NCBI GenBank assembly: GCA_009773555.1
Contig: WSXZ01000028.1
Coordinates: 1-46,681 of the forward strand
Reading direction: 5' to 3'
Length of the DNA: 46,681 nucleotides
From: Methylocystaceae bacterium
GTDB taxonomy: Bacteria; Pseudomonadota; Alphaproteobacteria; Rhizobiales; Beijerinckiaceae
In this document: one piece after another, positions 18,345-34,756 of the stretch
Layout: the number at the start of each line of letters is the position of its first letter
How positions within the stretch are numbered: position 1 is the stretch's first letter
Notes under the pieces: model-generated
What the model was told of the DNA's origin: nothing
Databases searched by the model: none
Seen by the model: the letters and a program-made list of their open reading frames with translations, nothing else
Made by a program: the position numbers and the translations under genes

Positions 18345-19919
18345 TCAGGTCCCTTTGAACATCGCCTGAACCCTCTCGGCCAATTCATCGAGCGTGAACG
18401 GCTTGCGCAAAAGCTCCATATTCGGGGCCAGCTGTAATGTCTCCGTCGATTTGCCCGCGTATCCGGTGATTAGCAGGATCGGCAGATCAGGATGCGCCGC
18501 TCGGGCGGCGTCAGCCAATTGAAGTCCGCCCAACCCGGGGAGGCCAACATCGCTGATCAAGAGGCACAACGGCTCGCCTGACTCTATTATTTTCAATCCT
18601 GCCGTCCCATCGCCGGCTTCGATTGTATCGTAGCCCATTTCAGCGAGGGCGCCGACAATTAGAGAGCGCACCTCCTCTTGATCCTCGACGACCAGGGTTT
18701 TTCCTTGATGCGTAGCGCAGGGGGAATCGAATTTCGTCCCGGTCGGCGACTGGTCTTTGGCGGCTGGGGATGGAAGCGGCGCGTGTCCCGGCAGATAAAT
18801 TCGCGCTCTGGTCCCTTCGCCAGGGGCGCTTTCGATTCGCACGTGCCCGCCAGATTGTTTGACGAAGCCGTAAACCTGCGACAGGCCCAAACCCGTCCCC
18901 TGTCCCGTGGGCTTCGTTGAAAAAAACGGTTCGAAAACGCGGCTGAGCAGATCATGACTCATCCCCACGCCGCTATCCGTCACCTCGATCTCAACATAGT
19001 CTCCTGGCGCCACATCGGGATCGGAAGAATCGCTCTCTAACGTCCGATCGGCGGTCGCGATCCTGAGCGCGCCGCCTTGCGGCATGGCGTCCCGAGCGTT
19101 GATTGCGAGATTCAACAAGACGCTCTCGAGTTGGGAGGGATCGCAGCTCACGCTCCAGCGGCAGCCCAAGCGTAGATCCAGATGGATTTCGGGCCCCAAC
19201 GTTCGGCGCAGCATTTCCTCAATGCCTGCCACGAGCTTGTTGGAGTCGATCTCCCGCGGCAACAACGTCTGTCGACGCGAGAAGGCCAGCATGCGGTTGG
19301 TGAGGCTGGAGGCGGTCGTCGATGCTTTCCGTATCGCCGCCAGGGGGCCGTCTATCGCGTTCGCGCGCCCAAGTGCAATCTGGCGTTCGATCACATTAAG
19401 GGAAGCGACGATGACTTGAAGCACATTATTGAAGTCGTGCGCGATGCCGCCGGTCAGCTGGCCGAGCGCTTCCATTTTTTGCGCCTGGGCCAGCTGCTCC
19501 TCGCTCGCGAGCAGCGCAGCATTAGCGTGACGTAGCTGCTCCATCGAAGGAAGGGCGAGGAAATTCGGCATAGCCCACCATAATGCGACCGCCGTCGCTA
19601 CGGAGGCGATCGCAGTTGCCGCTTTGATGAGCCCCTGCAAGCCGTAGAGCGGGGCCCAGAGGGTGAAAAGATCGAACAAATGCGTCATGCCGCACAGCAG
19701 GATGAACGCGGCAAATAGCCATAACAGCGGCCGAAATATGAGATCGCTCCTCCGCTTTCCCACAATCACGAGCGTCAGGGGGATGGAGAAATACGCCAGC
19801 GCGATAATGGCGTCGGAAACCGCATAGAGCCAGATCAGTCCCGGTTCCCATAGCAAGCAGTATCCATGCGGCGACAGTCCAGAGGTGTCAAAGAGCCACT
19901 CGCTCAGTGCAGACAGCAT
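18345..19919 (-). CDS. Hybrid sensor histidine kinase with ethylene-receptor-like membrane domain
   Basis: A 524-residue protein from the ATG at 19919, preferred because GGAG lies 8 bases upstream; ATG 19952 has none. Residues ~28-120 form three membrane helices with [15 protein letters not shown] and [14 protein letters not shown]36, C76 and H80 reproduce the spacing (40 and 4) of Asp25, Cys65 and His69 of plant ETR1, the residues that shape the Cu(I)/ethylene site. A HisKA domain (H161 in [11 protein letters not shown]) and an HATPase domain ([33 protein letters not shown]) follow. A C-terminal receiver has phospho-acceptor D457 ([11 protein letters not shown]). There is no separate response regulator and no GAF domain. 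The stimulus (ethylene, copper or other) is inferred, not shown. Confidence 0.92.
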
Positions 19920-20378
19920 GTAACCAGCTCCAGAGAAGAATTGCAGAAGCATTGAGAGCTGGGCGCGTGACGGACGAAGCCTTCAGCGTTACTTTGCGCG
20001 AACGCTTTAGGGTCGCCTGTGCCTTTGCCTCCCATGAGAGACCTCGCTAATCTTTCTAGCACGATCGTTGTCGCTGCGGCGCCCAACGCTCAGCTGGCCC
20101 ATGCCGTGGGTCGAGCTAAAGCGGTTTAAGCACCGCTTGCCTCAGGTGGGTGAAGTGACGTGGTCCGCCAGCGGGCGGCGCAAAGCCCTCGCCGCTGCGC
20201 ATCTCCTCCGGACGAAGCATCATGAGCACGGTCAAGCCTGACGTGACCACGGCCAGCAACATTTCGGTCGAAATGCTGCTCACCCACAATGCGCTGCCAA
20301 TTGGCTCGGCCGTGCGCGACGCGTTTCAGCCATAGCGCCGGATAGACGAAACGCCCGTTCGGCGCCACATGTCGCTTC
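19920..20378. other. Intergenic region between the ethylene-receptor-like kinase and alkB
   Basis: A 459-base gap without a convincing gene. A minus-strand frame ending at 20116 (from GTG 20283, about 55 residues) encodes a hydrophobic stretch MLLAVVTSGLTVLMML followed by a polar tail. It could be a small membrane protein, but it has no Shine-Dalgarno. The kinase promoter must be near 19930-20050, and alkB's just before 20379. Confidence 0.35.
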
Positions 20379-32881: not shown

Positions 32882-34756
32882 CTACTTCGAGTCCAGGATG
32901 TCGCGCATCTTTATCGCCAGCTGCTCCAAAGTGAACGGTTTGGTGAGCAGCTTGACGTCCTTGTCAAGAACGCCGTTGTGCACGATGGCGTTGCGCGTAT
33001 AGCCGGTGATGAACAGAACGCGCAGGCTGTGTCTGCGAAACACCGCCTCGCGCGCGAGACGGGCGCCGTCCATGTCGGGCATAACCACATCCGTGACCAT
33101 CAGCGCGATATCGGCGCGACGGCGAATAATGTCGATCGCCACGCGTCCGTTCTCGGCCTCCAGAACCGAATAACCCAATTCCCGCACACCTTGCGCGGTG
33201 ACGCGGCGCGCGGTGTCGTCGTCTTCCACGATGAGCACCAGTTCTTCCGGTCTTCCAAGCGGAAGTTCGAGGGGTCTAGGACGCGGCAAGGGCAGTTCGG
33301 CGGGCGCTTCGACGTGATTGAAGCGCGGCAGATAGAGCTTGATGCAGGTTCCGCGCCCGGGTTCGGAATAGATTTTGACCTGGCCGCCAGACTGCTTGAC
33401 GAATCCATGGACCTGCGAAAGGCCGAGTCCGGTGCCCTTGCCTGCGGGCTTTGTGGTGAAGAACGGATCGAACGCTTGCGACAAGACCTCGGGCGGCATG
33501 CCTTGTCCGGTGTCGGTCACCGCGATCATCACATATTGGCCAGGGGTTACTTCGATGTTTTCGCTGGCGTAGGCGTCATCAAGATAGCAGTTGGCCGTCT
33601 CGATCGTCAGCTTGCCGCCGTCCGGCATCGCGTCGCGCGCATTGACCGCGAGATTGACAATGGCGCTCTCCAGTTCGTGCTGATCGATTTTTGTCGTCCA
33701 CAGGCCGCCGGCCAGAACGGTTTCGAGTTCGATCTTTTCGCCGAGAGCGCGGCGCACCATGTCCGAGACGCTGGAGACGAACTTGTTGGGGTCGAGCGGG
33801 CGCGGCGACAAAGGCTGGCGGCGTGAGAATGCGAGGAGCCTGCGAACCATGGCGGCGGCGCGATCGGCGCCGTCCATCGCTGAATCGATCAGTTGAATGC
33901 AATCCTCGTTCGAATCCGCAAGCTTTCGCCGCAACAGATGCAGACTCGCGACGATGACGCCGAGCATATTGTTGAAGTCATGCGCGATGCCGCCGGTCAG
34001 ATGGCCGAGCGCTTCGAGTTTTTGCGACTGCCGCAACTGCGACTCGAGCGCTTCGCGGCGCGTCGTTTCCCCAATCAGCTGGTCGTAGGCGGTCTTTAAC
34101 GAGTCGCGGGACGTTTGCAGCGCGTTCATCTGCTTTTGCGCATTGAGAAACGAAAAAGCGGCAAGCGCGAAGATGATGCCGCCGAGCGCCCAAACGGCCG
34201 CGTCAAACTCGCCGCCGGCGGCGTTGAGTTCGCGCTCGCGCTTCTCGCTGAGATTTTGCTCATTTTCAATCATCGTGTCGATGATGGCGTGGAGCCGGTC
34301 CATCAGCGCCTTTCCGCGGCCGGACTTGACGAGCTGCACGGCCTTATCGACCCGGAGCGCGCGCATATCGGCGATCGCCTCATCGATGATCTCGACCCTT
34401 TCGCCAAGCAGCGGTCGCATTTCCGCGACGATCTCGAGCTGCTTGGGATTGTCTCTCACGCGCTCCGAGAGCCGGTCGACGACGGCGGGCAATTTGCGCG
34501 TCGCTTCGGAGCTGGCGTCCAGATAGCGTTCGTCTTGGGTGATGATAAAACCGCGCTGACCGCTCTCGGCGGCCTGCAGCAGTCCAAAAAGCTGATAAAG
34601 ATCGCTTTGCACCTGAATGGTGTGGCGCAGCCATGCGCCAGCTGCGCGGCGCTGGGATTCAGCGCGCACGGCCACAAATCCGGCGAGCGCAAGCACCGCG
34701 AATCCGAGCGCTATGCCAAACAGTCCAGAAGCGACGAATTTACGTGTCGGAGACAT
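32882..34756 (-). CDS. Hybrid sensor histidine kinase with CHASE3 domain
   Basis: A 624-residue membrane kinase. TM1 is at about residues 8-30. A periplasmic CHASE3 domain spans about 35-185 (AAESGQRGFIITQDERYL is the hallmark). TM2 is at about 187-207, followed by a short coiled-coil. A HisKA domain has H259 ([11 protein letters not shown]). The HATPase has NLAVNARDAMPDGG, DTGQGM and [20 protein letters not shown]-terminal receiver has D556 (TDVVMPDMDG). The transmitter-receiver half closely resembles that of the kinase at 18345-19919 while the sensors differ. There is no partner response regulator nearby, so a phosphorelay to an unlinked protein is inferred. The ligand is unknown. Confidence 0.93.
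   Translation of the reverse strand: MSPTRKFVASGLFGIALGFAVLALAGFVAVRAESQRRAAGAWLRHTIQVQSDLYQLFGLLQAAESGQRGFIITQDERYLDASSEATRKLPAVVDRLSERVRDNPKQLEIVAEMRPLLGERVEIIDEAIADMRALRVDKAVQLVKSGRGKALMDRLHAIIDTMIENEQNLSEKRERELNAAGGEFDAAVWALGGIIFALAAFSFLNAQKQMNALQTSRDSLKTAYDQLIGETTRREALESQLRQSQKLEALGHLTGGIAHDFNNMLGVIVASLHLLRRKLADSNEDCIQLIDSAMDGADRAAAMVRRLLAFSRRQPLSPRPLDPNKFVSSVSDMVRRALGEKIELETVLAGGLWTTKIDQHELESAIVNLAVNARDAMPDGGKLTIETANCYLDDAYASENIEVTPGQYVMIAVTDTGQGMPPEVLSQAFDPFFTTKPAGKGTGLGLSQVHGFVKQSGGQVKIYSEPGRGTCIKLYLPRFNHVEAPAELPLPRPRPLELPLGRPEELVLIVEDDDTARRVTAQGVRELGYSVLEAENGRVAIDIIRRRADIALMVTDVVMPDMDGARLAREAVFRRHSLRVLFITGYTRNAIVHNGVLDKDVKLLTKPFTLEQLAIKMRDILDSK

Follow-up and report, generated by a model that had tools for sequence, protein, structure and literature searches.

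The locus considered here raises the question of whether a bacterium of a methane-oxidizing genus carries a receptor for ethylene, the plant hormone gas, and how such a receptor would pass its signal on. The gene occupies positions 18345..19919 on the reverse strand of the window, i.e., of the whole 46,681-nucleotide stretch of DNA that was analysed, and encodes a hybrid sensor histidine kinase with an ETR1_N membrane domain (524 amino acids and a stop codon). The longest mechanically called open reading frame begins 11 codons earlier, at 19952 (535 amino acids). The start at 19919 is favoured because a probable ribosome binding site GGAG, read by eye, lies 8 nt 5' of its ATG (19928..19931, reverse strand), and because L113, a close orthologue, likewise has a mechanically called ORF of 524 amino acids; the ORFs of two further close orthologues, L115 and L116, are longer (539 amino acids). 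The reading frame and the two N-terminal peptides of 15 and 13 residues quoted in the preliminary description were found in the translation.

The sensor domain and its putative binding site

A Pfam scan of the protein places residues 28-123 (19551..19838, reverse strand) in the ethylene-receptor-type family ETR1_N (PF25487), with E = 8.1e-36 and 122.6 bits against a cut-off of 27. This E-value rules out a chance match to the Asp/Cys/His pattern by which the domain had originally been recognised. The spacing reported for that pattern, 40 and 4 residues between Asp36, Cys76 and His80 as between Asp25, Cys65 and His69 of ETR1, is correct when numbered from 19919. Sequence comparison makes the codons of Asp36 (19812..19814), Cys76 (19692..19694) and His80 (19680..19682), all on the reverse strand, the equivalents of ETR1 Asp25, Cys65 and His69 and of Asp35, Cys75 and His79 of AzoEtr1 from Azospirillum brasilense. 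The equivalents of ETR1 D25, Y32, I35, P36, I62, C65 and H69 are all the same residues in the window protein, where Tyr43, Ile46, Pro47 and Ile73 complete the seven-residue set with Asp36, Cys76 and His80; we take Y32 to be its seventh member. The essential set of ETR1 has seven members, D25, C65 and H69 being named in PMC11819568, and I35, P36 and I62 are named among the ETR1 residues in PMC6586836 (here and below, statements attributed to papers by PMC number refer to the parts of their texts that were available).

Conservation was assessed in two sets of relatives. In 30 profile-selected loci, comprising the window and 29 better-scoring Pfam matches in the genus and family (weaker matches are without a locus), the residues corresponding to D25, Y32, I62, C65 and H69 are invariant, I35 is kept in 29 and P36 in 28. 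In 80 rows selected by peptide patterns Cys and His are invariant, and the Asp25 position is occupied by Asn in five rows and by Gly in one, counts that are partly circular because the patterns used to find these loci hold some of the residues counted. The rows with Asn include two relatives from the gammaproteobacterial Methylococcaceae (L098, 137-3907, and L101, 8004-11774), the sensor domains of which are identical to each other, as well as L040, L043 and L074; Gly occurs in L038.

AlphaFold modelling of residues 1-150 with 80 sequences gave a mean pLDDT of 92.4 (block means of 91-98 over residues 31-150) and helices at residues 26-56, 63-86 and 92-122. Together with hydropathy, it predicts three transmembrane helices: TM1 (residues 26-56; 19752..19844) with Asp36, Tyr43, Ile46 and Pro47, TM2 (residues 63-86; 19662..19733) with Ile73, Cys76 and His80, and TM3 (residues 92-122; 19554..19646) with Lys99, all encoded on the reverse strand. 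The three helices recur in a full-length model (mean pLDDT 88.5, pTM 0.64), in which a helix at residues 92-121 is followed by one at 126-182 bearing His161. Basic residues at 55-57 and 63 suggest a cytoplasmic first loop, and hence a periplasmic N-terminus and TM2-TM3 loop. By helix register Asp36, His80 and Lys99 are 10, 6 and 7 residues away from what are presumed to be the periplasmic ends of their helices, and so lie at a similar depth, and one helical turn separates Cys76 from His80. Judged from this register, Asp36, Cys76 and His80 may converge on one pocket. A published ETR1 model has C65 and H69 at the dimer interface (PMC6586836), an arrangement that cannot show in a monomer prediction as run here. 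A PDB sequence search with the whole protein found no structure spanning the sensor domain among the best 60 of 182 matches, a search with residues 1-125 alone gave no matches at E <= 1, and structure comparisons yielded nothing informative.

Just N-terminal of TM1, a motif scan detected HGxCxxW at residues 18-24 (His18, Cys21, Trp24; 19848..19868, reverse strand). The motif stands ahead of TM1 in all 30 profile-selected loci, as against none of the 6353 other ORFs called mechanically in the window and the fetched loci. A script found it in 79 of the 80 named loci, and the one missed, the 5'-cut locus L083, shows it in its sequence. Cys21 and Cys76 are the sole cysteines in the membrane part of the window protein. 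The interchain disulphide cysteines 4 and 6 of ETR1 (PMC6586836) are unmatched; the bacterial proteins have HGxCxxW instead, and one may speculate that it serves dimer locking or copper loading.

The kinase, the receiver and known ethylene receptors

The preliminary description had the sensor joined directly to a HisKA-HATPase-receiver module. This layout is borne out by the profiles of HATPase_c (residues 260-377; 18789..19142) and of the C-terminal receiver (residues 409-518; 18366..18695), both above the Pfam cut-offs, and by a canonical H-box, AHDFNN at residues 160-165, with His161 as phospho-acceptor; the HisKA dimerisation and phosphoacceptor domain itself (residues 152-217; 19269..19466) scores below its cut-off (20.1 versus 26.9 bits). 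All three domains are encoded on the reverse strand. The kinase motifs NARDA (274), DSGVGM (315) and GTGLGL (341) are intact, as are those of the receiver (the phospho-acceptor Asp457, TGYA at 485 and KPF at 506). The kinase-receiver part resembles CckA-type hybrid kinases: it matches NCBIfam PRK13557 (3.8e-104) and CckA models (2.4e-98 and 9.2e-90), all under their whole-protein cut-offs, and PDB entry 5idj (3.7e-52). The difference lies in the sensor, which is ETR1_N in the window protein, and none of the reported matches covers the N-terminal part of the CckA models.

As had been claimed, there is no GAF family in the window protein according to the Pfam scan, and the full-length AlphaFold model places no domain, GAF or PAS, between sensor and kinase. 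GAF families were matched by none of 78 proteins, namely the window protein and 77 of its 80 named relatives (three proteins longer than 1100 amino acids were left out), so a missing GAF domain is ordinary among these relatives. Among rows with a recognised kinase domain, 31 of the 51 whose receiver is fused and 12 of the 30 that lack a fused receiver have a short linker between sensor and kinase (fewer than 40 residues by profile). Plant ETR1 has a GAF domain, unlike the window protein, and ends, as that protein does, in a C-terminal receiver. The likeness extends to the three-helix Cu(I)/ethylene domain with D25, C65 and H69 (PMC11819568, PMC6586836). Signalling by plant receptors runs mainly through a kinase-independent pathway that leads to a Ser/Thr kinase (PMC11819568).

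The preliminary description named plants and cyanobacteria as the bearers of such domains, which is right but incomplete, as they are also widespread in Proteobacteria, judging from our phylum sample and from PMC7700396. A close comparison is offered by AzoEtr1, likewise an alphaproteobacterial sensor histidine kinase with a three-helix ethylene-binding domain, which has been shown to bind ethylene and whose host, Azospirillum, responds to ethylene (PMC11819568). Its residues D35, C75, H79 and K98 correspond to D36, C76, H80 and K99 of the window protein. AzoEtr1 differs in having a PAS domain and a separate response regulator gene of 135 residues just downstream (PMC11819568), whereas no PAS domain was detected in the window protein, which has its receiver fused to the kinase and no receiver gene next to it. 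The Synechocystis protein SynEtr1 (slr1212), likened here by description, is also a bacterial ethylene receptor histidine kinase (PMC11819568, PMC7700396), but it differs in its light-sensing GAF domain and in having a separate regulator, slr1213, as its signalling target (PMC7700396).

The output partner, left unnamed in the preliminary description, was approached through a survey of 97 sensor-domain ORFs (the window protein, the 80 named loci and 16 from the genus). The receiver is fused in 51 of them, the window protein included, and not fused in 46. Among kinases followed by 500 or more bases of sequence, a single-domain receiver gene lies directly downstream of none of the 49 fused and of 28 of the 43 unfused ones, leaving 15 unfused kinases without such a gene; 14 of the 28 genes overlap the kinase stop by 4 bases. 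One of the 49 fused kinases has a single-domain receiver gene upstream. L114, which is one of the 28, resembles a frame-broken fused gene, and when it is shifted to the fused side the counts become 0 of 50 versus 27 of 42 (Fisher p = 7e-13, which is overstated as the rows are related). Kinases of this receptor kind are thus often paired with a receiver lacking an output domain, in cis or in trans; AzoEtr1 is a published example of the trans arrangement, and the window protein belongs to the cis type. An adjacent cognate regulator was not detected by the iterated receiver profile among ORFs of at least 80 amino acids in the window, where the sole other receiver protein found, 12.9 kb away, is a hybrid kinase with CHASE3, HisKA, HATPase_c and receiver domains by Pfam (32882-34756, reverse strand).

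The receiver tree does not support the idea that a neighbouring regulator was simply fused to the kinase, as it keeps cis and trans receivers for the most part separate. In this tree (113 columns, 54 of 102 inner branches open), 34 of 52 fused receivers, with the L114 piece taken as fused, gather in a cluster of 36 rows (support 80). Two other receivers join them there, but all 29 stand-alone receivers lie outside the cluster, in several places. This separation speaks for the acquisition of receivers by module exchange rather than by the fusion of one pair.

Distribution and the methanotrophic genus

The suggestion that the host is a methanotroph holds at the level of the genus, since a profile search found PmoA in 31 of its 39 genomes. 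The window's own assembly (4.0 Mb, 144 contigs, rated 99% complete) contains one PmoC-family gene (L129; G000:C12:7723-8448, reverse strand) and no PmoA match, though the same model matches in 31 sister genomes; the missing PmoA probably reflects a gap in the assembly. A profile search for Phenol_Hydrox/sMMO, run without a positive control, gave no match in this assembly.

At E <= 0.001, ETR1_N was found in 14 of the 39 genomes of the genus, in 28 of 149 in the family sample (27 over the cut-off) and in 29 of 398 in the phylum sample (28 over the cut-off). The genus is enriched relative to the phylum with p = 2.5e-6, a value obtained from overlapping samples and ignoring kinship. The domain is absent from 25 of the 39 genus genomes, some of them incomplete, which counts against the receptor reading. 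PmoA occurs in 13 of the 14 genus genomes with ETR1_N, the exception being the window's own genome, and in 18 of the 25 without it; a link between the two within the genus is not clear. In the family sample ETR1_N is present in 6 of 10 genomes with PmoA and in 22 of 139 without it (p = 0.003), assuming from shared handles that both tallies cover the same 149 genomes. Counted by genus, the ratio is 2 of 3 versus 13 of 40 (p = 0.28), so the association may reflect kinship, and it was not retained.

In the sensor-domain tree (115 columns, 47 of 91 inner branches open), one group of 18 with a support of 94 unites 15 of the 17 rows from the window's own genus with the three Methylosinus rows. The receiver is fused in every member of the group, provided that the broken L114 is taken as fused. 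The genes thiC, mog, dapB, gpmA, alkB and cysG, together with those for a cytochrome c and a TonB receptor, flank the receptor in the window and in L113, L115 and L116; in Methylosinus sp. Sm6 (L035), mog, dapB, gpmA, cysG, cytochrome c and alkB surround it. These gene names were assigned by eye. The tree group and the common neighbourhood suggest that the receptor has been inherited within the methanotroph lineage, with losses. Among plasmid records, possibly excluding those of the window's own genome, 18 had a match; the best place was below 60% identity in all 18, and none belonged to a methanotroph.

Some genomes hold additional copies. Genome G004 bears three ETR1_N genes, and its further copies L124 and L128 fall elsewhere in the sensor-domain tree; L124 (9236-9850, reverse strand) encodes 204 residues with the sensor domain and no detected kinase or receiver. 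One of the two G003 copies, L114 (7691-9284, reverse strand), is spread over two overlapping frames, being either frame-broken or affected by a sequencing error, and the other, L117, is a single open frame.

An ethylene receptor is plausible in such a host because methane monooxygenase (MMO) co-oxidises ethylene to epoxyethane, and ethylene is often toxic to methanotrophs (PMC11507031). According to the same source, ethylene is usually highest in waterlogged soils and etnE, a gene of the epoxyethane pathway, is present in 2 of 16 Methylocystis genomes; the word 'receptor' is absent from the accessible text of that paper. Genes recognisable as serving ethylene, epoxide or copper were not seen in the receptor's own neighbourhood, either among the neighbours inspected by eye or among nine searched with Pfam. 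A literature search over titles and abstract openings, mostly without subscription papers, found no methanotroph ethylene receptor, and novelty in print is not established by it. PMC10504283, where both 'Methylocystis' and 'ethylene receptor' occur, deals with particulate methane monooxygenase (pMMO) expressed in plants, and in the available text of PMC12857756 neither 'ethylene receptor' nor 'methanotroph' was found.

Proposed mechanism, alternatives and significance

The window protein is a well-conserved homologue of the bacterial ethylene receptors, as judged by its primary structure. It is probably a homodimeric inner-membrane receptor of the bacterial ETR1 kind, that is, a hybrid kinase responsive to ethylene through Cu(I). 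Starting from the domains, residues and predicted helices described above and from the methanotrophic nature of the genus, the following course may be proposed for the dimer and its topology, for copper and ethylene, and for the response sign, phosphorelay and physiology. The dimer would reside in the inner membrane with its N-terminus toward the periplasm, and its three transmembrane helices would hold Cu(I) via Cys76 and His80, Asp36 and Lys99 forming a second shell. Ethylene would bind the copper, and the change would travel from TM3 through the following helix to the HisKA bundle, altering autophosphorylation of His161. By analogy, ethylene probably lowers kinase activity, an effect that is predicted for AzoEtr1 and indirectly indicated for SynEtr1 (PMC11819568). 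The phosphoryl group would pass from His161 to Asp457 of the fused receiver, then to an unlinked phosphotransfer protein and finally to a response regulator encoded at another locus; the separate phosphotransfer protein is a guess. The likely use in this genus would be the sensing of ethylene, which MMO turns into toxic epoxyethane.

Copper governs MMO expression, and the regulated quantity might be copper itself, the Cu(I) site being kept as part of a methanotroph copper switch and ethylene binding being incidental. The invariance of the putative copper ligands in the 30 profile-selected loci would suit a copper sensor, and the extra HGxCxxW of all 30 could add a metal site. Purified ETR1, however, binds copper with femtomolar affinity (PMC6586836), which would be a poor range for a graded switch. 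The essential residues that are not ligands (Tyr43, Ile46, Pro47, Ile73) are kept as well, and ETR1_N is also found in many organisms that are not methanotrophs, so that regulation by copper seems unlikely. Cu(I) in general binds unsaturated and pi-acid ligands, so its chemistry would also permit an ETR1-like site for acetylene, propene, CO or an isocyanide, and position 79, beside His80, is variable (Thr in 74, Gly in 4 and Ser in 2 of 80 relatives). Another small ligand is nevertheless quite improbable: the four named AzoEtr1 residues are kept in the window protein, and AzoEtr1, the tested proteobacterial relative, binds ethylene in a host that responds to it (PMC11819568).

It could further be supposed that the fold alone has been kept in a degenerate or ligand-independent kinase, given that the gene occurs in only some members of the genus (14 of 39 genomes) and that relatives with altered key residues exist (Asp25 replaced by Asn in 5 and by Gly in 1 of 80, Pro36 by Ser in 2 of 30). 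In the window protein itself no key residue is missing and the catalytic motifs are intact, and its three close orthologues, which are flanked by the same genes, show 96.5 to 99.1% identity across 115 sensor-region residues, which makes degeneration a very remote prospect. The reading as a Cu(I)-dependent ethylene receptor is preferred.

Bacterial ethylene receptors were already known, and a methanotroph setting had been raised as a possibility in the preliminary description. A wider proposal can be put forward tentatively, as a conjecture that may well prove wrong: the methanotrophs of Methylosinus and of the window's genus would share an inherited ethylene receptor without PAS or GAF domains and with a fused receiver, which would warn of a gas that competes as a substrate of MMO and yields toxic epoxide, and would adjust methane oxidation or behaviour in the root zone, while HGxCxxW, invariant at the periplasmic mouth, would serve copper loading or dimer locking. 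Such a receptor would matter in a methane oxidizer because ethylene can inhibit methane oxidation. If true, a methanotroph receptor would link a plant hormone gas to the methane sink and extend bacterial ethylene sensing beyond the phototaxis of Synechocystis and root colonisation by Azospirillum.
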